Source: a virus. Taken from it: a DNA stretch of 24,653 bases. Each line of letters opens with the position of its first letter. Position 1 is the stretch's first letter. Of the stretch, positions 7,789-23,998 are shown one piece after another. The position numbers and the translations under genes were made by a program. Under the pieces are notes generated by a model. That model was not told where the DNA came from. It made no database searches and saw nothing but the letters and a program-made list of their open reading frames with translations. The stretch lies in IMG/VR virus record IMGVR_UViG_3300042691_034939, positions 1 through 24,653 of that record; one strand, given 5' to 3'.

Positions 7789-8175
7789 ATGAAGTCTTTT
7801 AGAGAATTTCTTATTGAAGGTTACGCAGGTGGCGCCGGGAACGCAAAAGATTCCAAATCTCACAATCTTCCCATGACCAACAATCCAGTGTCGGCGGGAG
7901 TTAATCACGCGGATCCTACACTAGACGGATTGCGCTCTCATTTACTCGATATTTTTTGGCCAAAGGCAAACGGCGACAAGCAATTGGAAACCATCATCAA
8001 TCAGTGTGTTACCACTTTTGTGCATGCCATGGACAAAAAACTCAGAATTGATGAAGACATCATCAAGAAGCTTGCCGATGCAGCAAGCATGGGGCAAGAG
8101 TCAGTTACCAAAATACTCAGCGAGGAGTTGGATAAATACTACGGAAAATTCCAGAACATCTACGGAATGACATAA
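7789..8175 (+). CDS. Predicted internal head protein with capsid-targeting leader
   Basis: A 128-residue protein. The leader MKSFREFLIEG is among the closest in the window to the T4 capsid-targeting sequence, with predicted cleavage after LIE (residue 10) before Gly. A Gly/Asn-rich stretch (about 11-40) is followed by a helical domain (about 42-125, LDGLRSHLLDIFWP to LDKYYGKFQNIYG). I recognise no known fold. It heads a block of genes encoding similar leaders, directly after a promoter-like element and without a Shine-Dalgarno. Confidence 0.75.
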   Translation: MKSFREFLIEGYAGGAGNAKDSKSHNLPMTNNPVSAGVNHADPTLDGLRSHLLDIFWPKANGDKQLETIINQCVTTFVHAMDKKLRIDEDIIKKLADAASMGQESVTKILSEELDKYYGKFQNIYGMT

Positions 8176-8196: not shown

Positions 8197-8625
8197 ATGA
8201 AAAAATTTAGCGAATGGATTGGCTCAATCCGCGAAGCAGAAGATGCTAAGAAGTCTGAACTGCAAAAGTCTTACCAGGATTATTTCCAAGCAAAGCTTGC
8301 AAAATTTGGTGTAGAATCCCCTGCCGATTTGGATGAAGAGAAGAAGAAAGAGTTCTTCAACGAGATCGCAGCTGATTGGGATGCTGGTAAGGGCGTTAAA
8401 CCTGCTGCAAAGGAAAAAGTAGAAAAGGAGAAAGAAGAGGCTGGTGTTAAAGAAGCCGAAGTTCCTGCTGCTAAAGACGCTGAAGAAACTGAAAAGCTTC
8501 CTGCTGCTGAAGACGCTCAAGAAGGCGGAGAAGAAGTGAAAGCTGCTGCTCCCAAGAAAGAAGAAGAACAGGGAACTGAAGTAAACGCTGAAGGCGAAAT
8601 TGATACTGAAAAAGATGCCAAGTAA
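8197..8625 (+). CDS. Acidic/basic low-complexity head core or internal protein
   Basis: A 142-residue protein. N-terminus MKKFSEWIGSIREAE fits the leader pattern with predicted cleavage after IRE (residue 13). A short folded part follows (about 20-70), with DYFQAKLAKFGVESPADL and EEKKKEFFNEIAADWDAGKG. The last 70 residues are Glu/Lys/Ala-rich, with a visible tandem repeat of the type (V/L)PAA(K/E)DAxE. Highly charged, cleavable proteins of this kind are typical of T4-like prohead scaffolding cores (gp67/gp68-like) as well as of internal proteins. I cannot decide between these. Confidence 0.72.
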   Translation: MKKFSEWIGSIREAEDAKKSELQKSYQDYFQAKLAKFGVESPADLDEEKKKEFFNEIAADWDAGKGVKPAAKEKVEKEKEEAGVKEAEVPAAKDAEETEKLPAAEDAQEGGEEVKAAAPKKEEEQGTEVNAEGEIDTEKDAK

Positions 8626-8887: not shown

Positions 8888-9088
8888 ATGAAACACATTC
8901 AAAATTTCGATTCTTTTATCGGCGAAGCAATGGTACAAGTTGCCGGCAAGAACAAGCCTTCTGGCGCTAAAGTACTAGCATCGGTAATTATGGAGTACTT
9001 GGACGACAATCTTCTCATGCCGTCAAACGCAAATAAAAAAGACATTGAAGCTGAAATTGCTCAGCTGATTATGGATTCTACTTTTTAA
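8888..9088 (+). CDS. Small predicted internal head protein with capsid-targeting leader
   Basis: A 66-residue protein starting MKHIQNFDSFIGEA, with predicted cleavage after IGE (residue 13). The mature protein of about 53 residues contains a helix (VLASVIMEYLDDNLL) and a Lys/Asp-rich turn. No family is recognised. The start codon lies immediately after the previous stop, and the next start is 1 nt past its own stop, so it sits in one operon with the ligase-like gene. Confidence 0.75.
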   Translation: MKHIQNFDSFIGEAMVQVAGKNKPSGAKVLASVIMEYLDDNLLMPSNANKKDIEAEIAQLIMDSTF

Positions 9089-9089
9089 T

Positions 9090-10403
9090 ATGAAGCTACT
9101 GTCATATTCAAAATTCCAGGACATGCTCAAAGAAGCGGAAAACCGCGATGCGGCGTGGTCTCTATGGAACACGGTAAATGAAGGTGGAGCGTACGGTCAC
9201 ATCAGCCACCCTTTCGAGGATGCAGGTCTGACCATGCAAGATCTTCGAGAAATGATTGAGGCAACAGTTAGCGGTTCATTTGGACCAGAAAACTTTGTTC
9301 AAGAGAAGACCGACGGTCAAAATATCATGATCTCTTGGAAGAACGGAAAGCTCATTGCCGCTCGTAACAAGTCTCACCTCAAAAATGCTGGTGAAGCCGC
9401 TCTTGATTCTTCAGGAATTGCAAGCCTATTTGCTGGCCGAGGCGACATTGAAGCTGCATACAATGCAGCTATGAAAGACCTCACTGGCGCTATCAGTTCT
9501 CTATCCGAAGCCGACAAGAAAAAGTACTTTGACGACGGGAAAAAGTTTGCTTCTGTTGAAGTCATTACTCCAATTACGCAAAACACGGTTCCTTACGGAC
9601 AAAACATGCTAGTTTTTCATGGTGTTGTTGAACACGATGCTGATGGAAACGCTGTTGGAGAAGATAAACAAGCAGGCAGAGAACTTGGAAAACTGGTGGC
9701 GGATGCAAATGCAACTGCTCAAGAAACTTTCTTTGTTCGAGGTCCGCAAGACATTGATTCTATTCCGTTTCCCAAAACAAAGGAGCGTGCTTCTTACTAT
9801 ATGAAAAAGCTGGATACTGTCATGTCAGAAAGTGGTTCCACCGCTAACAGTACAGTCGGAGATTATGCTTTAGGTATGGGAAAAAGAATTCTGAAAGAGG
9901 AAGCCGCTAAGGCAAAGGTAGAAATACCGGAAAATTCTCTTGATGGTTTAGCACGTAGAATAGCAGATATTGACAAATCATATACAGTTGCTCAGCTGAA
10001 AAAGGATCTAGGCCCTGCAGCGGATTGGTTTATTGACTTGGAAAAGAGCCGTGGCAAAGAACTAAAGAGAAGGGTGTATGGACCGCTGGAAAGTCTCTTT
10101 CTAGAGGTTGGAACTGAAATGATGAAGAACATCAGCGCTTTTCTTTCGGCCAATCCAACAGCGGCTGCTGCTTCTATGAGAAAAGAAATTGATTCTGTCA
10201 TCTCATCAATCCGCACAAACGGAGATGAGAAAGATGTAGAGAAACTGGAACACGAGCTTACTCGTGTAGCTGCTGCAGGCGGATTGGAAAGCATAGTTCC
10301 TACAGAAGGTATTACTTTTGTGTTCAAGGGAAAGCTTTACAAATACACTGGGATCTTTGCTCCACTACATCAAATAAGAAGCATTCTTGCTTACAAAAAA
10401 TAA
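9090..10403 (+). CDS. Nucleic-acid ligase-like nucleotidyltransferase with capsid-targeting leader
   Basis: The 437-residue protein has the covalent nucleotidyltransferase motif I, K73-T-D75-G76 in VQEKTDGQNIMISW, where the lysine would be adenylated. A C-terminal region TEGITFVFKGKLYKY (about 405-419) resembles motifs IV and V of RNA/DNA ligases, with K418 in the motif V position. A large helical insert (about 240-400) separates them. The N-terminus MKLLSYSKFQDMLKEA fits the leader pattern with cleavage after LKE (residue 15). It is grouped with an HxGH nucleotidylyltransferase gene. Substrate (DNA nick, RNA ends or other) cannot be told. No separate OB domain is obvious. Confidence 0.75.
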   Translation: MKLLSYSKFQDMLKEAENRDAAWSLWNTVNEGGAYGHISHPFEDAGLTMQDLREMIEATVSGSFGPENFVQEKTDGQNIMISWKNGKLIAARNKSHLKNAGEAALDSSGIASLFAGRGDIEAAYNAAMKDLTGAISSLSEADKKKYFDDGKKFASVEVITPITQNTVPYGQNMLVFHGVVEHDADGNAVGEDKQAGRELGKLVADANATAQETFFVRGPQDIDSIPFPKTKERASYYMKKLDTVMSESGSTANSTVGDYALGMGKRILKEEAAKAKVEIPENSLDGLARRIADIDKSYTVAQLKKDLGPAADWFIDLEKSRGKELKRRVYGPLESLFLEVGTEMMKNISAFLSANPTAAAASMRKEIDSVISSIRTNGDEKDVEKLEHELTRVAAAGGLESIVPTEGITFVFKGKLYKYTGIFAPLHQIRSILAYKK

Positions 10404-11015: not shown

Positions 11016-11597
11016 ATGAAAGGCTACGTTAAAACATTTGAAAGCTTCATCTTCGAGAAAGAAGGCCAAAAGGTGGTGTTCTTTCCTGGAAGGTTTCAGC
11101 CTTTTCATAATGGCCACTTGGCAGCTCTAAAAAGAACTTCCGAGGAATTTGGTCTGCCCGTGATCCCTATCCAGATTCTTTCTAAAAAAGAGGAATCACC
11201 CTTTCCAGATTCATTATTGGAAAAGATGGGGTCTGATGTAGTAAAGGCCAACAACTACATCGCAGACTATTTCATATACCCACAAGGCCAAAAGACAGTA
11301 ATACCTCTAATGGTGCAGTTCTTACGTAGCAAAGGCTATGAACCGATGGGACTTGGCTGTGGTAGCGACAGACTCGCAGATTACAAAAGACAGGTTGATT
11401 ACATCACAGGCCCAAAGACAGACACTCCCGTAGATCCCGGTTTTAGCGTGAAGATGGTAGACGTGAGAGAAGATGGCGGGCCTAGCGGAACTAAAGTTCG
11501 TCAAGCTTTGCGGGACGATGATAAAAAAGCATTTGATGAACAGATGCCAAAAGAGCTTCATAAGTATTTTGAAGAACTGAGAAAATACATTAAATAG
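11016..11597 (+). CDS. HxGH nucleotidylyltransferase (NMN adenylyltransferase-like) with capsid-targeting leader
   Basis: A 193-residue member of the HxGH nucleotidylyltransferase superfamily, which includes NMN and pantetheine-phosphate adenylyltransferases. The family motif GRFQPFHNGH ends with H31-N-G-H34, and the second motif is SGTKVR (157-162, equivalent to [S/T]xxxxR). GRFQPFHxGH is typical of the archaeal-type NadM/NadR group. The protein starts MKGYVKTFESFIFEK, a leader with predicted cleavage after IFE (residue 14). The enzyme fold begins at about residue 18, right after that cut, so cleavage would leave it intact. The start follows the previous stop directly. Confidence 0.82.
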   Translation: MKGYVKTFESFIFEKEGQKVVFFPGRFQPFHNGHLAALKRTSEEFGLPVIPIQILSKKEESPFPDSLLEKMGSDVVKANNYIADYFIYPQGQKTVIPLMVQFLRSKGYEPMGLGCGSDRLADYKRQVDYITGPKTDTPVDPGFSVKMVDVREDGGPSGTKVRQALRDDDKKAFDEQMPKELHKYFEELRKYIK

Positions 11598-12167
11598 ATG
11601 AAAACATTTCAAACATTCAAGGAAAACGGAATCACGATCAATGAAGCAATTGATCTGACTGCGGTTAAGCCAATTACGCCCAGCAAGCTTCCTGCAGAAG
11701 TTGTGAGTATGCTCAATGACCGTATCGGAGATGAGTACACAGCACACTACTTCTACAGAAATGCTGCTAACTGGTGCAAAAACGTAAACTACAAGAAGGC
11801 TGCTGCATTCTTTGAAGCAGAAGCTAACAGCGAATTGGAACACGCAAAAGGTCTTCAAGACTACCTTGTGCAGTGGAACGAAATGCCTACCATTCCGCAA
11901 GCCCCCACACGAATCGACTTCACAAGTCTAGTAGACATCATCAATCGCGCTTACCAATTGGAATATGATTTGTATGACAAATATTCCGAGAAAGGCCAAA
12001 AAATACTCTGTGAAATTCACTGCGCTACATTCAATTTCATTCAAGGATATGTAGATATTCAGAGTGAAGCAGTGGGAGAATACTCAGATCTTCTGAATGC
12101 TCTAATGCTAATCAATACAGATAGCAAATTCGAGATTCTGTATTTTGAAAATGAATACTTTGGATAA
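11598..12167 (+). CDS. Ferritin-like iron storage protein with capsid-targeting leader
   Basis: A 189-residue four-helix ferritin. Diiron-site residues are in the expected order: E46 (GDEYTAHYFY), E79-x2-H82 (NSELEHAKGL), E122 (YQLEYDLYDKY) and the Q/E pair near 155-157 (GYVDIQSEAVGEY). The spacing matches bacterial non-haem ferritins. The N-terminus MKTFQTFKENGITINEA is foreign to ferritins and fits the leader pattern, with cleavage after INE (residue 16). The ferritin body starts around residue 34. This suggests an iron-oxidising protein packed in the phage head. The gene abuts the HxGH gene upstream. Confidence 0.85.
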   Translation: MKTFQTFKENGITINEAIDLTAVKPITPSKLPAEVVSMLNDRIGDEYTAHYFYRNAANWCKNVNYKKAAAFFEAEANSELEHAKGLQDYLVQWNEMPTIPQAPTRIDFTSLVDIINRAYQLEYDLYDKYSEKGQKILCEIHCATFNFIQGYVDIQSEAVGEYSDLLNALMLINTDSKFEILYFENEYFG

Positions 12168-12175
12168 CAATCTCT

Positions 12176-13264
12176 ATGAAACACGTTAAACTATTTGAAC
12201 AATTTATTTTTGAAGCAAACATGTATGATAAATATGCCAAGAAAATTGGCTGGGTCATGCAGTCCAATGACATACGCACAACATCAGGAGATGTAAACGG
12301 CCGTGAAAAAAAGTACAACATGACCGCAAAAAATGCGTTGTTTCATAATTACTTTACTAAGGATGACTTTGACAATGAAAAAGTTCAAATAGTAGAAGGG
12401 ATCCCTCTTCTCTATTACGGAGGAAGCATGGACAAAGAATCTGAGAGCTTTATCAAGAATAAGAAAATCAATCCAGAGATGCTCTACAATAAGAGAGAGA
12501 TATTACAAACTTCTGGAGACAAGACTATTTTTGCAGAGACTTTTGGAAAATACGATTGGCTTCCCAAGACAGTATTTTCCAAGAAAGAAGCGATTGACGG
12601 AGCAGTTGGCTTTCCTGTGATTGCCAAAATTAAAAATGGACATAGCGGCCTGGGTGTTCAAAAGTTTGACACTGCTGAGGAACTCAAAAAGAGCAAAGAA
12701 GACTTTGATCTCTTCTGCCAATTTATCGATTTTGAAAGAGAGTACCGTGTAGTTTTCTGCCAGGACAAGATCATCATTATTAACGAAAGAGTTCCCACAA
12801 TTGAGGAGGATCGCTCTATTAAAACCAAGAAAGCTGACGAAAAAATTGCTTTCACTTACGTCTATCAGGATCAAAATAAAGTGGATTCCAAATTCATCAA
12901 AAGCGTTTTAAAGATTTGTTCAGACATTAAGAAAGACCTGGACCTAAACCTATGGTCGCTCGATGTAGTGGTGGATAAAAAAGGAAAGCTGTGGGTAATG
13001 GAAACTTCATCAGCAACTGGTTTAGGTAGCGTGAAAATGTGTGAAGTTTACAAAGCTATTTACGAAGACTTTTACGGTGAGTCTCTTCCTGATGAATTTC
13101 TAGAAGACATTTACAAAAAATACGTAGTGACGGGGCATCAAAACTACTGGCCAAAATACAAAAAAGAAATTGAGTCGTCTCCCTGGGCAATGGATTACAC
13201 CGTCATAACGGACCCAAAGGCCAAGGATGGATATCGATACTTTTTCAATCTCGATAAGAAATGA
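12176..13264 (+). CDS. ATP-grasp enzyme with capsid-targeting leader
   Basis: A 362-residue protein with ATP-grasp features. The ATP-binding strand and Gly-rich loop are in FPVIAKIKNGHSGLGVQKF (about 146-164, K151), followed by the EREYRVVF strand (187-194). The metal-binding end is SLDVVVDKKGKLWVMETSSATG (about 261-282, E276). This family joins an acid to an amine or thiol through an acyl-phosphate. The substrate is unknown; RimK-like glutamate ligases and peptide ligases are related. The leader MKHVKLFEQFIFEA predicts cleavage after IFE (residue 13). It overlaps the downstream dehydrogenase-like gene by ATGA, so the two enzymes are probably made together. Confidence 0.8.
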   Translation: MKHVKLFEQFIFEANMYDKYAKKIGWVMQSNDIRTTSGDVNGREKKYNMTAKNALFHNYFTKDDFDNEKVQIVEGIPLLYYGGSMDKESESFIKNKKINPEMLYNKREILQTSGDKTIFAETFGKYDWLPKTVFSKKEAIDGAVGFPVIAKIKNGHSGLGVQKFDTAEELKKSKEDFDLFCQFIDFEREYRVVFCQDKIIIINERVPTIEEDRSIKTKKADEKIAFTYVYQDQNKVDSKFIKSVLKICSDIKKDLDLNLWSLDVVVDKKGKLWVMETSSATGLGSVKMCEVYKAIYEDFYGESLPDEFLEDIYKKYVVTGHQNYWPKYKKEIESSPWAMDYTVITDPKAKDGYRYFFNLDKK

Positions 13265-14318: not shown

Positions 14319-15155
14319 ATGAGAAGAGAACAGTTTTACGCAAAGCATCAACACCTCGGTGTAGATCAAAAAGAGCTGGAAAGAAAGTACCGGTTATACT
14401 TAAGAGAACAAGAAGAAACTCGGATGCTGTATGAAGCAGCAATGAAATCCTCGTCATCAGCGCCTCCGGGTGTTGCAGGTGGCGGAGGCAGCGGTGGCAG
14501 TGGCGGAGATCTTACTCTTGTTTTTTCTAGCTTTGACACTGTGGATGTGCTTTTAGCAGGTGGGTTTGATAGCTTGCCTGATTGGAACATTGCAATAGTA
14601 GGCGCCGGAAATCCATATACATCAATTAGCGTGGATGAACCGAATTTCACAATATATTTAAGTGGCGGTTCAAATATAACTTTGGATCCGGATGCGTTTA
14701 ACGGTATATTTGAAGGAGGCCTAGGCCTTGGCGAAGATCTTATATCAATTGTTGACACGGGAACAATCGTAGAATCCAATGGCAATACGTTTTATTATTG
14801 TTTGGTTCTTGAAACAGTCATTTTACCTGCGCTAGCAGAAGTTCTCATAAACGATTTTTACAATTGTACTAAACTGAAAGAAGTTCAATTGCCATCTGTA
14901 ACTGCGGTTGGCGAATACGGGTTTTACAGTGCATTTAATACCGCTGATTCTCCGATGACACTAAACCTGCCGCTTTGTACTTCGTATGGAGCTAGTGCAT
15001 TTCTTCAGTCTGACGGATTCGAAGGTTATATTGGGACTACAGATGTAGATTCGCCAAAAGTAATGAATGCTACCTTTTCAAATTCTGTAATAGCAAATCC
15101 TGAAATTACTCTTTTACTTGCAGAAAATAGCGGCATTGTACCAACTTATGTTTAA
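14319..15155 (+). CDS. Leucine-rich-repeat (BspA-type) fibre or adhesin-like protein
   Basis: A 278-residue protein. It begins with a charged helical segment (about 1-43, including YRLYLREQEETRMLYEAA), then a Ser/Pro and Gly-rich linker (about 44-64, GVAGGGGSGGSGG). The rest is beta-rich, with BspA-like leucine-rich repeats around LETVILPALAEVLINDFYNC and LKEVQLPSVTAVGEYGFYSA (about 166-205). This layout (anchor helix, flexible Gly linker, repetitive domain) suits a virion-surface fibre or host-binding decoration. It is not a recognised T4 tail-fibre homologue. The stop overlaps the next gene by 8 nt. Confidence 0.7.
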   Translation: MRREQFYAKHQHLGVDQKELERKYRLYLREQEETRMLYEAAMKSSSSAPPGVAGGGGSGGSGGDLTLVFSSFDTVDVLLAGGFDSLPDWNIAIVGAGNPYTSISVDEPNFTIYLSGGSNITLDPDAFNGIFEGGLGLGEDLISIVDTGTIVESNGNTFYYCLVLETVILPALAEVLINDFYNCTKLKEVQLPSVTAVGEYGFYSAFNTADSPMTLNLPLCTSYGASAFLQSDGFEGYIGTTDVDSPKVMNATFSNSVIANPEITLLLAENSGIVPTYV

Positions 15156-15618
15156 TTTGGATGAGCACTTATACAGGGATGTAATATCGGTAGAGGAAGA
15201 AATTGAATTGAATAAAGCCATACCAGATCTTACAAAAAAGTATAGCAGAAAGATATTGCGGTATGGAGTTTCAAAATATAACAACAATTTAGTTTCATTA
15301 GAAGTGCCGCAATACTTATTAGAATTGGCAAATAAATTTACAAAATTAGGCATACTTAAATTTGTTCCAAAAGATTACACCATCAACATTTACAAACCGA
15401 AAGATTTCATAAAATATCATATTGATATGGGTGATGATGATACGCTAATCCTTAGTATTCTAACTCCAATCACATTTAATCTAAAGAAAAATGAAGAAGT
15501 AATGTCCTTTGAATTCCCTAATAGATCTGCGTTATTATTAACTGGAGAGTACCGTACTGAATGGCAGCATGCAATAGAACCTGTAAAAGAACGGCGCATA
15601 TCCGTGGTTTTTAGATAA
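15148..15618 (+). CDS. AlkB-like 2-oxoglutarate/Fe(II) dioxygenase
   Basis: A 156-residue protein from ATG 15148, preferred over the TTG at 15118 that lies deeper in the upstream gene. The double-stranded beta-helix Fe site is visible: H91-I-D93 in NIYKPKDFIKYHID and H141 in EWQHAIEP. The 2-oxoglutarate-binding Arg residues are at R150/R156 in RRISVVFR. The segment SALLLTGEYRTEWQHAI is typical of AlkB proteins, which oxidatively demethylate nucleic acids. It is small for AlkB and lacks an obvious nucleotide-recognition lid, so protein or base modification are both possible. It follows a fibre-like gene, and phage dioxygenases often sit beside fibre genes. Confidence 0.8.
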   Translation: MFNLDEHLYRDVISVEEEIELNKAIPDLTKKYSRKILRYGVSKYNNNLVSLEVPQYLLELANKFTKLGILKFVPKDYTINIYKPKDFIKYHIDMGDDDTLILSILTPITFNLKKNEEVMSFEFPNRSALLLTGEYRTEWQHAIEPVKERRISVVFR

Positions 15619-15671: not shown

Positions 15672-16211
15672 ATGAAGTACGTTAAAGGATTCAATGATTT
15701 TGTGGTGTCTGAAGGATTCCGTTACCACATGGAAAATGGTTTGGACATTACCAACAGCGTTTACCGTCTAGGTAGCGATGCATATAAGCAGTTGTTTGAA
15801 GAAACCAAGCAATACTGGGACGAAGGGAATGTAATACTCAAAGACAAAGCAGCTTGGGTGGCAGCAAATTTGGAAGTAGGAAAAAAAGCAAAGTTTAAGA
15901 CTGAAGATGGAAAGATGATTGATGTGGAACTTGACACGCCATCCCGAGGCGGAGATAAAAAGTTTCAAGTATATCGAGATGGCGGAAAGAAAGACGACGA
16001 CGGAAATATCATCGCAAAACGTATAACGTGGGGTGACACCAGTGGGCTAAGCATTAAAAATGACGATCCGAAAGCATCGGCATCTTTTTGGTCAAGACAA
16101 CAGTGCGACTTACAGAAGAAAATGGACCCCGATACTGCTGGATTTTGGGCTTGTTATGCCCCTAGTCTATTTGGCAAGCAACTTGGTTTGAGTTCCGAAG
16201 AACCTTGGTAA
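15672..16211 (+). CDS. Predicted internal head protein with capsid-targeting leader
   Basis: A 179-residue protein starting MKYVKGFNDFVVSEG; cleavage is predicted after VSE (residue 14). The middle part has a beta-rich look (KKAKFKTEDGKMIDVELDTP). The C-terminal part contains SFWSRQQCDLQKKMDPDTAGFWACYAP (about 138-164), a Trp/Cys-containing motif of a type I have seen in hypothetical proteins of large phages but cannot name. Single Cys residues at C145 and C161 could pair or bind metal. It follows a GATAAATA element and heads the second large leader-gene block. Confidence 0.72.
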   Translation: MKYVKGFNDFVVSEGFRYHMENGLDITNSVYRLGSDAYKQLFEETKQYWDEGNVILKDKAAWVAANLEVGKKAKFKTEDGKMIDVELDTPSRGGDKKFQVYRDGGKKDDDGNIIAKRITWGDTSGLSIKNDDPKASASFWSRQQCDLQKKMDPDTAGFWACYAPSLFGKQLGLSSEEPW

Positions 16212-16402: not shown

Positions 16403-16618
16403 ATGAAACATATTCAAACTTTTGAAAGCTTTATGAATGAAAGCTACAGCAGTTATTCAAATAATGAATTGGCCGCCTATGTGATGGAGCTATCTAAGGA
16501 AAAGAAAGCTGCGGAATCTCGTGGAAAAAAGAAGGAAGCCGAATTGCTAGCAAAAGACCTTGAGGAAGTGAAAGCAGAATTAGTTAAACGAAAAACCCCT
16601 ATACCAAATGTTGACTAA
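16403..16618 (+). CDS. Small predicted internal head protein with capsid-targeting leader
   Basis: A 71-residue protein starting MKHIQTFESFMNES, with predicted cleavage after MNE (residue 13). The mature protein has a Ser/Tyr-rich start, then a long Lys/Glu-rich helix with a probable coiled-coil pattern (about 22-62), and ends with a Pro-rich tail. It overlaps the next gene by 11 nt. Its function in the head or the host is not evident. Confidence 0.75.
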   Translation: MKHIQTFESFMNESYSSYSNNELAAYVMELSKEKKAAESRGKKKEAELLAKDLEEVKAELVKRKTPIPNVD

Positions 16619-16841: not shown

Positions 16842-17110
16842 AACCTTACACTGAAGAAAAATTAGAGGAGTCCGTAGTCATACGGACTTTTTTAGCGGAC
16901 ATTGATGAGATGGAATTAAAGTGGCATTGGGACGAGGAAGACCGAATTGTAGAACCGCTGAATGAAAACGATTGGCAATTTCAGTTCGATAATCAATTGC
17001 CAACACGGATAAATAAACAGATTCACATTCCGGCAGGAGTCATTCACAGAGTGATACGCGGAACCTCTGATTTGATTGTAAAAATAACTAAATGCAATGA
17101 GCGAATTTAA
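16838..17110 (+). CDS. Small cupin-like protein
   Basis: A 90-residue protein with a single-domain cupin look. MELKWHWDEEDRIVEP (about 27-42) contains the His/acidic first motif, and INKQIHIPAGVIHRVIRGTSDLIVKI (about 59-84) carries the PxGxxH second motif. Cupins bind metals or small ligands; the substrate is unknown. The first 12 residues, MKPYTEEKLEES, could be a degenerate capsid leader (possible cut after LEE). A terminator-like hairpin lies within codons 11-19. The start is fixed by the ATGA overlap with the previous gene. Confidence 0.65.
   Translation: MKPYTEEKLEESVVIRTFLADIDEMELKWHWDEEDRIVEPLNENDWQFQFDNQLPTRINKQIHIPAGVIHRVIRGTSDLIVKITKCNERI
16869..16893 (+). terminator. Terminator-like hairpin inside the cupin gene
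   Basis: A perfect 8-bp stem: AGTCCGTA (16869-16876), loop GTCA, and TACGGACT (16881-16888), with a run of six T (16888-16893). It has the form of an intrinsic terminator but lies in coding sequence about 30 nt after the cupin start codon. It may attenuate transcription of the cupin gene and genes after it. Confidence 0.6.
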
Positions 17111-17513
17111 GAAATTTGAAGAATTTTTGGCTGAAGCCAAAGCGGAAGGCGGCAAATACGGTTCTTACCAAATGGATAACGCCAACAATGGCATAGGTAT
17201 GGACAGTATTTATGTAAACTTAGGTAGGTTTAATGCTCCTGAAATGAACATTAAAATTAGTATGTACTCAGGCGGGTCTGACGGCGTAACTGTAAAGCTT
17301 CCAAAAAAGTTAGCAGAACTACAAAAATCTATACACGACGCGTATACTTCTAAAGATGCAGCAGCGGTGCAAGCTGCTGAAGAAGCAGACCGCGAAAAGA
17401 GCAAAATGCTTCAAGACATGCAAAAAGAAATTTTTGAAGAGCTAAAGAAAGCAATTGATTCATTCGACAAAGAAGTTGGAAGTATCATCAATAAAGTAGT
17501 CAGCAAATACTAA
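17097..17513 (+). CDS. Predicted internal head protein with capsid-targeting leader
   Basis: A 138-residue protein starting MSEFKKFEEFLAEA; cleavage is predicted after LAE (residue 13), the same final three residues as a leader at 22941. The middle has a beta-rich segment (SIYVNLGRFNAPEMNIKISMY) and the last 65 residues form charged helices with coiled-coil character. Family unknown. It overlaps the cupin-like gene by 14 nt and shares one base with the next start (TAATG). A GATAAATA string lies 82 nt upstream inside the cupin gene. Confidence 0.73.
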   Translation: MSEFKKFEEFLAEAKAEGGKYGSYQMDNANNGIGMDSIYVNLGRFNAPEMNIKISMYSGGSDGVTVKLPKKLAELQKSIHDAYTSKDAAAVQAAEEADREKSKMLQDMQKEIFEELKKAIDSFDKEVGSIINKVVSKY

Positions 17514-18397
17514 TGAAGTACGTCAAACTATATGAACAGTTTATCAATGAGAGTGGAAATTCCATTGACAACGCGATCCCTTTCAAGCAGGATCAGGTAG
17601 AATCTACCATCTCTTGGGTGGAGGAAAACGTGTTTCCGCAGATTGGATTAGTTGGATTGAGCGATGACGCAGCAATCCTAGGTAGCGCGGGCAAGAAACT
17701 CGCGGACCAAACTAGCGGGGACATTGACCTAGCAGTCTCAGCAGATAAGATTGCTGGGCATCTAGGAGTCTCGCTTGAAAAGGTTCTGTTTGCTCTCAAC
17801 GATAAGTTGAAGGACATGGGACTGAGCACAAAGCTTGCCGTTGGTTTTAATCAAGTAAGCATAGGTGCGCCAATCGGTGGAGACCCCAAGAACGGGGTTG
17901 GACAAGTAGATCTTATGCTTTCTACCGACTTGGTCTGGAGTAGCTTCATCTATCATTCGCCAGACTTTAGAATTGCGGAATCAAAATATAAAGGTGCTTA
18001 TCGTAACCTGTTGCTGATGGCGGCCATCGGAAAATCTTTTTTTGAGGCTACAAAGAAAACTGATAAAGGAGAAACTGCCGAATATAAAGCGTACGTGGTG
18101 CGACTCAATCAGGGTATTGTTGAAGTCCGTAAAAGTTTTGAAGGCAAGAAAGGATTAGTAAAGACTGCGCAGCTTCTTAAAGAATATGATAAGCTCATCA
18201 CAAAAGAACCTCAAGGCGTAGTGGACCTGCTCTTTAACGGAGGCCACAAGCCATCTGACATAGATACGTACGAAAAGCTGTATTCTCTTCTAAATTCAGG
18301 AGACTTTAAGTACCCAGGAAGCATGAGCGATATCATGAGCGATTTTAAGAGCAAGCTTGAAGATTCCGGGCTTCCATTGCCCGAAGGGATTGGATAA
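17513..18397 (+). CDS. Polymerase-beta-type nucleotidyltransferase with capsid-targeting leader
   Basis: A 294-residue protein whose leader MKYVKLYEQFINES predicts cleavage after INE (residue 12). The catalytic centre of the DNA polymerase beta nucleotidyltransferase superfamily is clear: G57-S58 in ILGSAGKKLADQTSGDIDLAVS with D70-x-D72, and a third acidic residue D133 in VGQVDLML. Members transfer a nucleotide to RNA, DNA, protein or small molecules (CCA-adding, aminoglycoside modification, AMPylation). The C-terminal half is helical. The substrate cannot be told. It shares one base with the preceding stop. Confidence 0.78.
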   Translation: MKYVKLYEQFINESGNSIDNAIPFKQDQVESTISWVEENVFPQIGLVGLSDDAAILGSAGKKLADQTSGDIDLAVSADKIAGHLGVSLEKVLFALNDKLKDMGLSTKLAVGFNQVSIGAPIGGDPKNGVGQVDLMLSTDLVWSSFIYHSPDFRIAESKYKGAYRNLLLMAAIGKSFFEATKKTDKGETAEYKAYVVRLNQGIVEVRKSFEGKKGLVKTAQLLKEYDKLITKEPQGVVDLLFNGGHKPSDIDTYEKLYSLLNSGDFKYPGSMSDIMSDFKSKLEDSGLPLPEGIG

Positions 18398-20162: not shown

Positions 20163-20498
20163 ATGAGTCACGTAAAATCATACAATGAATTCCTTAATGA
20201 GGCTTTAGTTGTAGTGAAGCGGAAATATACCGAATCTCATCCACAAAAAGTTGCTTCTAGCTATGCTCCTGTCAGAGAGAGGATTCTTTCCTTGGTAAAT
20301 GAAAAAGGAAGAGTTAGTGAAGACGAGATGAGTCAGTTCCTCAAAATGATGAATGAAGAAACGGGTAGGAAAACCAACACCGGCTGGTTGAAAGCCAATT
20401 CCAAGTACTTCAAGATGAAAGAGGAAGAAGGCGTAAAATACTATACTCTGTCTGCAGAAGGCAAGAGAATCCACGAAAAATTAACTTTGCAAAAATGA
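20163..20498 (+). CDS. Winged-helix-like internal head protein with capsid-targeting leader
   Basis: A 111-residue protein starting MSHVKSYNEFLNEA, with predicted cleavage after LNE (residue 13). The body (about 35-105) looks like a winged helix: VRERILSLVNEKGRVSEDEMSQFL as helices 1-2, a recognition helix near TNTGWLKANSKYF, and a wing at MKEEEGVKYYTLSAEGKRI. This implies nucleic-acid binding, perhaps packaged with or acting on DNA. No close family is recognised. It overlaps the next gene by ATGA. Confidence 0.72.
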   Translation: MSHVKSYNEFLNEALVVVKRKYTESHPQKVASSYAPVRERILSLVNEKGRVSEDEMSQFLKMMNEETGRKTNTGWLKANSKYFKMKEEEGVKYYTLSAEGKRIHEKLTLQK

Positions 20499-22137: not shown

Positions 22138-22332
22138 ATGAGAGATGCTCGAGAACTCAAAAATGCCACAGTAAAAGTCGGAGGAAAGACTGGAAAGGTT
22201 GTAGGCTTTTGGGTTACTGAAAACAATGTGGTATATGCCAAAATAAAAGACTACCAAGGAACCACCACTAACCATCGATTAACTGAACTCAGTTCAGAAA
22301 TGGAGTTGGTAAAAAAACAATTAGAGGAATGA
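22138..22332 (+). CDS. Small beta-rich unknown protein
   Basis: A 64-residue protein with beta-strand pattern (TVKVGGKTGKVVGFWVTENN and VVYAKIKDYQG) and a C-terminal helix (SSEMELVKKQLEE), like a small SH3-type barrel. No capsid leader and no family recognised. GACGGAAAG lies upstream of the ATG. Its stop overlaps the next start (ATGA), so it belongs to the same operon. Confidence 0.65.
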   Translation: MRDARELKNATVKVGGKTGKVVGFWVTENNVVYAKIKDYQGTTTNHRLTELSSEMELVKKQLEE

Positions 22333-22673
22333 AACACGTACAAACATACGAAGTTTTTTTATATGAAAGCTATTTGCTTGAAGCGGATGATGACGATAAA
22401 GCATCCACGGATCAAGGGCCTATTGATAACGAAGCTGTTGAAACAGGGTTAGCTAATAAGAAAAAAGAGACGGGTTGCCCAATTGGAATTCTTCGTGCTG
22501 TGTTTAGACGCGGAATGGCAGCTTGGAAAAGTGGTCACCGACCTGGAGCAGGGCAAGAACAATGGGCATATGCCAGAGTAAATAGCTTTTTAACTGGCGG
22601 AAAAGGTACGTGGGGCAAAGCCGACGCTGATTTAGCTAAAGAAGCAAGAGCTGCTGGCTTCAACCCAAAATAA
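22329..22673 (+). CDS. Internal head protein with leader and a widespread RPG-WAxARVNSF domain
   Basis: A 114-residue protein. Leader MKHVQTYEVFLYES; cleavage predicted after LYE (residue 13). An Asp-rich linker (about 18-45) leads to a C-terminal domain, GCPIGILRAVFRRGMAAW followed by HRPGAGQEQWAYARVNSFL and KADADLAKEARA. I have seen the RPGxxxxQWAxARVNSF motif in many hypothetical proteins of large phages, but I cannot attach a function. The domain here is fused to a capsid leader, suggesting it is delivered with the DNA. Confidence 0.75.
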   Translation: MKHVQTYEVFLYESYLLEADDDDKASTDQGPIDNEAVETGLANKKKETGCPIGILRAVFRRGMAAWKSGHRPGAGQEQWAYARVNSFLTGGKGTWGKADADLAKEARAAGFNPK

Positions 22674-22682
22674 GAAGATGCC

Positions 22683-22931
22683 ATGAAACATCTGCACACA
22701 TATCAAAGCTTTCTGAATGAAGGCAGGTCATTTACGGATTCAATGAATCCACAAACAAAGGAAATCTACCAGGAATACCGAGAAAAGATCTCCAGCTTTG
22801 AAATCTTTGATCATAAAAAACTGGATGATGCTCTCAAAAGCGATGATCGTGTAAAGAAGTCCGGCCAAGAAAAACTTTTACAAACTGCTTTAGGATGGGC
22901 TCTTACGCATGCTCAAGAAATGGAAAGATAA
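22683..22931 (+). CDS. Small predicted internal head protein with capsid-targeting leader
   Basis: An 82-residue protein starting MKHLHTYQSFLNEG, with predicted cleavage after LNE (residue 13) before Gly. The mature protein is highly charged and helical (EIYQEYREKISSFEIF and KLLQTALGWALTHAQEME). Family unknown. It lies 9 nt after the previous stop and 9 nt before the next start, in a chain of four genes that all encode such leaders. Confidence 0.74.
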   Translation: MKHLHTYQSFLNEGRSFTDSMNPQTKEIYQEYREKISSFEIFDHKKLDDALKSDDRVKKSGQEKLLQTALGWALTHAQEMER

Positions 22932-22940
22932 AAAACTGCA

Positions 22941-23174
22941 ATGAAACACGTTAAAACATACGAAGGCTTCTTAGCAGAAGATCATCCATACTACAAAGGA
23001 ATTAGTAGTAGTACTGCCGATAAGAAGAAAGCACAGATGAAGAAGCAAGCAGCTGCTGATGACGATGATCCGGAAGCATACAAAGAGCTACCGGGAGATA
23101 CAAAAGGAAAGGGTCAATTAAAGACTTCCAAGCATACAAAAAAATATCAAGAGCTCTACGGAGACAAGAAATAA
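22941..23174 (+). CDS. Small predicted internal head protein with capsid-targeting leader
   Basis: A 77-residue protein starting MKHVKTYEGFLAED; cleavage predicted after LAE (residue 13). The body is rich in Lys and Asp and carries DDPEAYKELPGDTKGKGQ followed by KTSKHTKKYQELYG. This motif resembles one that I recall as recurrent at the C-terminus of many phage hypothetical proteins, but I cannot name a family. The high charge and low hydrophobicity suggest disorder. Confidence 0.74.
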   Translation: MKHVKTYEGFLAEDHPYYKGISSSTADKKKAQMKKQAAADDDDPEAYKELPGDTKGKGQLKTSKHTKKYQELYGDKK

Positions 23175-23184
23175 ATAAAGCATT

Positions 23185-23595
23185 ATGAAACACATTCAAT
23201 CATTTGAGAACTTTTTGAACGAGTCAATAGAGACCACCGATGATTTTTCAAAATCTAAGAAAAACCGTTCAGAGTATACCGAGCTTATTACAAAAGCCGT
23301 TGCAAAAGAATTCAATTTTTCTACCAGCCTTTTTTCTCAAGACTTTATATTTCAGATTGCGGATGATATGGGTGAGACTAAAGCGATCATTACTCTTCCT
23401 ATGAGTGAAGGCGATAAGAAGAAAGAAAAGCTTGCTGGCGAAATTGAAGACTTCATAAATGATTATGTGAAAAAGGAATCCAAGATCAAAGATCTGCAAT
23501 ACAGTCCTACTAAAACCGGAAAGGTTGCAAACGTAGGGACGGCCAACAATGGAAACTGGATTGTTATGTGGAGACCGGTATTTTTTAGAAGATAA
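23185..23595 (+). CDS. Predicted internal head protein with capsid-targeting leader
   Basis: A 136-residue protein starting MKHIQSFENFLNES, with predicted cleavage after LNE (residue 13). The body (about 28-136) has an alpha/beta pattern: YTELITKAVAKEFN, DFIFQIADDMGETKAIITLP, a charged helix, and a final beta segment NWIVMWRPVFFRR. No family is recognised. It is the last gene of the leader block; a GC-rich hairpin follows 2 nt after its stop. Confidence 0.74.
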   Translation: MKHIQSFENFLNESIETTDDFSKSKKNRSEYTELITKAVAKEFNFSTSLFSQDFIFQIADDMGETKAIITLPMSEGDKKKEKLAGEIEDFINDYVKKESKIKDLQYSPTKTGKVANVGTANNGNWIVMWRPVFFRR

Positions 23596-23638: not shown

Positions 23639-23998
23639 TTATAGAATACTGATGCTTCGAGAATTTTTCTTGGCTTCTGTAGAAAATTCAATACTCAGTA
23701 CGCCATTTTCAAGTTTGGCAGATACTGATTCACAATCCAAGTTTTCTACCTGGAATGTCTTTTTCATTTTTGAGTTAAGAAACTTTGGAAGATTTCTTTC
23801 AGTGCTTGCTTCAACAATGAGGTCTTTGCCTTCGGTGCGCACTGTCACCTCTTCTCTGGAGAATCCAGGAAGGAGTACATCAATTGTATAACCTTTTTCG
23901 TCTTGACGAATATCGGTCTTAGAATAGGTTGACGAATTGTGGTTTGCGTATTCAAACAATTCATCGTAGGCATTGAAAATAGATGTTGATTTCCACAT
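23639..23998 (-). CDS. hsp20: Small heat-shock protein (Hsp20/alpha-crystallin)
   Basis: An ATP-independent holdase chaperone, 119 residues. The alpha-crystallin domain is clear: GYTIDVLLPGFSREEVTVR (about 36-54) and the signature AKLENGVLSIEF (94-105). The C-terminus ends in SISIL, the I-x-I motif that docks into neighbouring subunits. The N-terminal arm is short (about 28 residues). Hsp20 proteins are known in T4-like cyanophages. It is the only - strand gene here, with its own terminator and a divergent upstream region, so it is probably controlled separately. Its start is preceded by an A-rich leader (complement of 23999-24025). Confidence 0.92.
   Translation of the reverse strand: MWKSTSIFNAYDELFEYANHNSSTYSKTDIRQDEKGYTIDVLLPGFSREEVTVRTEGKDLIVEASTERNLPKFLNSKMKKTFQVENLDCESVSAKLENGVLSIEFSTEAKKNSRSISIL

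Follow-up and report, generated by a model that had tools for sequence, protein, structure and literature searches.

The locus lies in a 24,653-base virus contig from IMG/VR, which we analyzed over its whole length (hereafter, the window). The window has a tRNA count of zero, and its genes begin with a tail-tube-like one, followed by a replication block (SSB, primase, exonuclease, helicase) and then by many small same-strand genes. Its source is best read as a large uncultivated T4-like phage, probably with a host in the Bacteroidota. The named phages nearest by capsid protein are Prevotella Lak phages, Tenacibaculum PTm1 and Flavobacterium MaF61, whose hosts are mostly Bacteroidota, and the small number of Shine-Dalgarno-like sites (3 of 19 window starts) is in keeping with such a host. 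Elsewhere in the window we noted an iron-using enzyme of the 2OG-Fe(II) oxygenase family about 3 kb from the gene under study (15118-15618; PF13532, E = 4e-12), and an HSP20 small heat-shock protein on the minus strand (23639-23998), opposite to nearly all other window genes.

At positions 11598-12167 on the plus strand, an open reading frame of 189 amino acids begins with an ATG that abuts the stop of the preceding gene; the next in-frame ATG falls within helix A. The product matches PF00210 (Ferritin) in Pfam with E = 4.9e-17, and 46 PDB sequences match it, with bacterial (non-heme) ferritins at the top of the list. Because the alignments with these PDB ferritins all start at query residue 30-35, residues 1-29 constitute an added N-terminus, bearing out the initial annotation, which had described it as foreign to ferritins. 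An AlphaFold2 monomer model (mean pLDDT 90) comprises five helices (residues 33-62, 66-92, 111-140, 142-169 and a short 177-187); the first dozen residues are disordered and confidence is low until about residue 20. Foldseek aligned the model to E. coli FtnA and a Vibrio ferritin with a target TM of about 0.9.

Five of the six diiron residues named in the initial annotation, E46, E79, H82, E122 and Q155, are invariant among 24 viral relatives and align with E17, E50, H53, E94 and Q127 of FtnA, whereas the sixth, E157, varies among the relatives and is assigned outside the diiron site. The site-C residues of FtnA are mostly absent, with S78, I154 and A158 in place of E49, E126 and E130, and the diiron ligand set resembles that of eukaryotic H ferritin. 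With site C not retained and a score of 56.9 bits against the NCBIfam FtnA model NF007638, under the curated cut-off of 178 bits, the protein does not classify as an FtnA orthologue. Alignment and model nevertheless identify it as a genuine cage-type (FtnA-like) ferritin with a four-helix bundle, for which cage assembly is predicted. Its subdivisions, together with the other genes discussed below, are listed in Table 1.

Table 1. Features of the ferritin gene and of leader-bearing genes in the window (arrows mark predicted or putative cleavage positions)
Feature	Position	Strand	Basis
Leader gene MKSFREFLIE↓G, function unassigned	7789..8175	+	Leader start
Leader-like gene MKKFSEWIGSIRE↓AED, function unassigned	8197..8625	+	Leader-like start
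Leader gene MKHIQNFDSFIGE↓A	8888..9088	+	Leader start
Leader-like gene MKLLSYSKFQDMLKE↓A	9090..10403	+	KTDG motif as in nucleotidyl ligases (suggestive)
Leader gene MKGYVKTFESFIFE↓K, NMN adenylyltransferase-type nucleotidyltransferase	11016..11597	+	PF01467, TIGR00125
Ferritin: CTS-like leader MKTFQTFKENGITINE, residues 1-16, predicted cut after E16	11598..11645	+	PSSM, T4 IPI match, disordered in model
Ferritin: linker, predicted cut to helix A (residues 17-32)	11646..11693	+	pLDDT climbs between residues 20 and 32
Ferritin domain, four-helix bundle, ligands E46, E79, H82, E122, Q155	11694..12167	+	PF00210, invariants, AlphaFold2, Foldseek
Ferritin: residues 177-187, the short fifth helix (E) found in cage ferritins	12126..12158	+	DSSP on model
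Leader gene MKHVKLFEQFIFE↓A, weak ATP-grasp (R2K) match	12176..13264	+	PF18299, E 2e-4, under its cut-off
Leader gene MKYVKGFNDFVVSE↓G, conserved among related phages	15672..16211	+	Leader start
Leader gene MKHIQTFESFMNE↓S	16403..16618	+	Leader start
Leader gene MSEFKKFEEFLAE↓A	17097..17513	+	Leader start
Leader gene MKYVKLYEQFINE↓S	17513..18397	+	Leader start
Leader gene MSHVKSYNEFLNE↓A	20163..20498	+	Leader start
Four consecutive leader genes at 22329, 22683, 22941 and 23185	22329..23595	+	MKHVQTYEVFLYE↓S, MKHLHTYQSFLNE↓G, MKHVKTYEGFLAE↓D, MKHIQSFENFLNE↓S

The first 17 residues of the ferritin read MKTFQTFKENGITINE↓A. Cargo bearing a capsid-targeting sequence (CTS) has hydrophobic or aromatic residues at positions 4 and 7 and ends the leader in hydrophobic-x-E before a small residue; in the ferritin we found F4 and F7, and INE↓A at residues 14-17 as the corresponding sequence, with cleavage predicted. 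Scored with a PSSM whose training set consisted of other leader genes and no ferritins, the ferritin leader reached 12.9, a value that none of the 198 genes on a leader-free phage contig (G019) attained. The start of T4 IPI, taken from the T4 record, is MKTFKEFTSTTTPVSTITE↓A, with the pattern MKTFKEF...TITE↓A, where the arrow marks the cut site of IPI. Alignment of the two leaders yielded a shuffle p of 0.00085, and the ferritin ranked first as an IPI match in the window (42 genes) as well as in the closest large relative (G002, 202 kb, 247 genes). By these comparisons, residues 1-16 match the CTS of T4 internal proteins, that of IPI most of all, and the likeness exceeds chance, in agreement with the earlier proposal that INE↓A fits a phage leader. 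In T4, targeting depends mainly on CTS residues 4 and 7, and processing on residues 8 and 10 (PMC9026906).

Counted by eye, about 20 of some 40 window genes, unrelated to one another, carry such a leader, most of them as variants of MKHVKTFESFLNE↓A. A strict CTS pattern was present in 12 of the 42 window genes, compared with 0.2 expected from shuffles, and in 16/247 genes of G002, 19/322 of G010 and 25/670 of G013; it was enriched in these contigs as well as in G017 and G004, but not in G019 (0/198), whose ferritin is without a leader. Synonymous codons for identical leader residues differ freely between the window leaders, indicating that selection acts on the peptide. The tag is retained in the nucleotidyltransferase orthologues of L008 and L013, while the ATP-grasp gene, tagged in the window, is untagged in L004. 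No match was obtained in Pfam, PHROG or PDB for the product of the leader-like gene with the KTDG motif, and an AlaDH-like neighbour at 13261 was rejected as leader cargo, since its start is not a leader. Two tagged genes, the nucleotidyltransferase and the gene at 22329-22673, match separate parts of one large cytidyltransferase family (phrog_3041), namely the N-terminal enzyme and the C-terminal DUF5824, as though a longer phage protein had been divided in two and each part had received a tag. If packaged, the NMN-adenylyltransferase-type enzyme could supply NAD synthesis at infection, when NAD-depleting defences act.

Complete head genes are absent from the window contig and from G002, and evidence on the protease and the capsid was therefore taken from relatives. 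In G010, G013, G017, G026 and others, a gp21-family protease domain is encoded just upstream of a gp23-type capsid gene. In these four contigs, the first 60 residues of the major capsid protein include HSLNE↓S or HSLNE↓G, and the proteins of G004 and G014 contain SINE↓N there. These sites fall roughly where T4 gp23 has its propeptide, in a region where the alignment with gp23 is gappy. At the level of the motif, SLNE↓S and SLNE↓G are sites of the type seen in the ferritin (INE↓A), with the exact cuts putative. Several observations concern head genes more generally. In L048-L051, L053 and L054, the gp21-type protease domain resides in ORFs of about 610-740 amino acids near the capsid gene, far exceeding T4 gp21 and perhaps representing a protease-scaffold fusion. 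Beside the capsid genes of G010 (L090:14543-17442 and L091:322-2315) there is a run of paralogue-like proteins with near-identical leaders MKNLKTFEQFLNEA, possibly abundant internal proteins. Weak structural matches to the ferritin in BFVD (A0A6J7WPK9, A0A6J7WIS1 and A0A6J7XDU5) carry the name prohead protease and seem to contain a Dps/ferritin-like domain, a hint that the ferritin fold and the phage head are linked in another way as well.

Many viral contigs carry this ferritin family, which occurs in at least 157 stretches. A scan of 84,980 prokaryote genomes with two family-specific patterns, which would miss distant ferritins, gave no close relative, and the window ferritin had no match even at E = 10 in 50,697 phage records (cultivated phages), where the ferritin of L042 gave a single chance-level match. 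Bacterial ferritins with the same N-terminus, which would have spoken against the initial annotation, were thus seen neither with these patterns nor in PDB. Of the 77 distinct viral ferritins compared, those with the CTS-type leader all fall within one supported clade (27 rows, SH-aLRT 97). Extensions with both the leader pattern and NE[ASGN] numbered 16 of 27, compared with a shuffled mean of 0.04 and a maximum of 2 in 2000, although the rows are related and the count is not an independent one; the fusion of leader and ferritin that had been suggested as worth seeking in related phages is accordingly present there. The leader drifts within the clade, its key positions staying while the rest of the extension changes over deep divergence. 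Phages pT24 and immuto were rejected as cultivated models, as this leader type was not found in the stretches examined.

Eleven viral ferritins lack an N-terminal extension, and four of them (the L175 group) lie amid leader genes. Since ferritins can be leaderless even in leader-rich genomes, packaging, as predicted from the leader, would be lineage-specific; the leader behaves as an optional module, as it does for the ATP-grasp gene, and the basic job of the gene needs no packaging. Similarity of the ferritin leader to the leaders of its neighbourhood was positive in 7/7 CTS-type representatives (p = 0.008) and not significant across all extended ferritins (p = 0.083). The idea that the ferritin of every lineage copies the local leader, suggestive for L042, L200 and L005, was set aside as not significant overall. 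In another phage lineage (L042:1-15463 and L198:1-8537), the ferritin starts with MKNVVITKEQLFQAAMNINE and several neighbours have MKVVITEEQ or a similar start, apparently a second type of leader.

We consider it reasonably probable that the ferritin, with its intact diiron site, is a CTS-addressed and protease-trimmed head cargo of a T4-like phage. We infer that the leader would dock the protein on the prohead core during head assembly, as happens with T4 internal proteins, that a gp21-like prohead protease would cut after INE16, and that the mature ferritin (residues 17-189) would stay in the head beside the genome, as one of the roughly 20 proteins in the window that bear a leader. Of the original claim that the ferritin is addressed to the capsid interior, the address to the prohead holds at the sequence level, given the T4-type CTS, the putative capsid site of the relatives and the conservation in the clade, with arrival in the head a prediction from it.

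Several other accounts merit consideration. The ferritin might act only in the infected cell, as an auxiliary against iron or oxidative stress, with the leader a relic of a cassette start or serving another role and little or no protein packaged. Such a function needs no capsid, and leaderless orthologues persist, also in leader-rich genomes; a relic should decay, however, whereas the leader positions have been kept over deep divergence as the rest of the extension drifted, and by T4 precedent a CTS alone suffices to package foreign proteins (PMC9026906). We regard this account as rather doubtful. The start common to many unrelated genes, gained or lost between orthologues as in the ATP-grasp gene of L004, could also suggest that gene cassettes are shuffled by recombination at this start, which would then act as a handle in the DNA and carry no protein signal. 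We disfavor such a handle on account of the synonymous variation among the window leaders; in addition, the F/Y and V/I/L substitutions preserve the chemistry and the cleavage motif would be left unexplained, making this the least probable of the accounts.

Large phages can build compartments that import proteins selectively, and the leader might route proteins to such a compartment, or elsewhere in the infected cell, instead of to the prohead. We nonetheless judge this routing very improbable, in view of the resemblance of the leader to that of a T4 internal protein and of the match between its terminal protease site and the putative propeptide site in the capsid proteins of relatives.

If the ferritin is head cargo, its most likely, though weakly grounded, role would be the management of Fe(II) and peroxide early in infection, by subunits that pass the tail and reassemble in the host. 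A folded 24-mer (about 12 nm) cannot pass the tail channel, and delivery therefore needs unassembled subunits, which would be packaged and ejected singly, like small T4 internal proteins, and then become active in the new host. We lean slightly toward early host action because the neighbouring tagged genes look like enzymes. The main alternative is for the ferritin to remain in the virion and shield the packed DNA by taking up iron and oxidants, which would suit an assembled cage. As the N-termini of ferritin cages face outward, such a cage could display 24 leaders. One may then envisage that a virus-only ferritin family became head-packaged in one phage clade, with up to 24 CTS copies drawing whole, possibly iron-loaded cages into the prohead and the virions acquiring, in addition to some 20 other packaged proteins, an internal store of iron or a sink for oxidants; we hold this to be unlikely, more so than action confined to the infected cell.

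In the literature searched, with most subscription journals outside its scope, no ferritin had previously been described as packaged or CTS-addressed. If real, the case would be a natural counterpart of T4 engineering, in which a CTS addresses a cellular-type enzyme to the phage head. It would also open virion iron and the delivery of proteins at infection to direct testing, and would provide, in the leader, a simple sequence handle for listing the packaged cargo of uncultivated large phages.

Compared with known systems, the window ferritin shares its fold, the equivalents of its diiron ligands and its E helix with E. coli FtnA (1eum, 4xgs), from which it differs by 27% identity, an added leader, a shortened C-terminus and a changed site C. 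The parallel with encapsulin and EncFtn that had been drawn at the outset is a loose one: in both cases a ferritin-superfamily protein is cargo of an HK97-fold shell (packaging being predicted for the window protein), whereas they are unlike in fold and in the terminus that carries the targeting signal. EncFtn, an annular protein, is small, has two helices and bears its encapsulin targeting peptide at the C-terminus. The window protein is modelled as a full five-helix ferritin with an E helix; it stops just past helix E (177-187 of 189), leaving no C-terminal encapsulin peptide, and its tag is an N-terminal, putatively cleavable CTS. The inner-body and ejection proteins of phiKZ and SPN3US are likewise head cargo, of jumbo phages, cut C-terminal to Glu by a gp21-related protease; they mostly have long propeptides, with an A-x-E site in SPN3US, and no ferritin is mentioned in the passages considered (PMC5694885). 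The closest likeness in the leader is to IPI, IPII, IPIII and Alt of T4. The window case, known from sequence alone, differs from the T4 internal proteins in having a ferritin as cargo and a far larger leader set. In both phages, several unrelated proteins share an N-terminal leader with aromatic or hydrophobic residues at positions 4 and 7 and a hydrophobic-x-E↓A end, and the IPI leader has a spacer like that of the ferritin leader.
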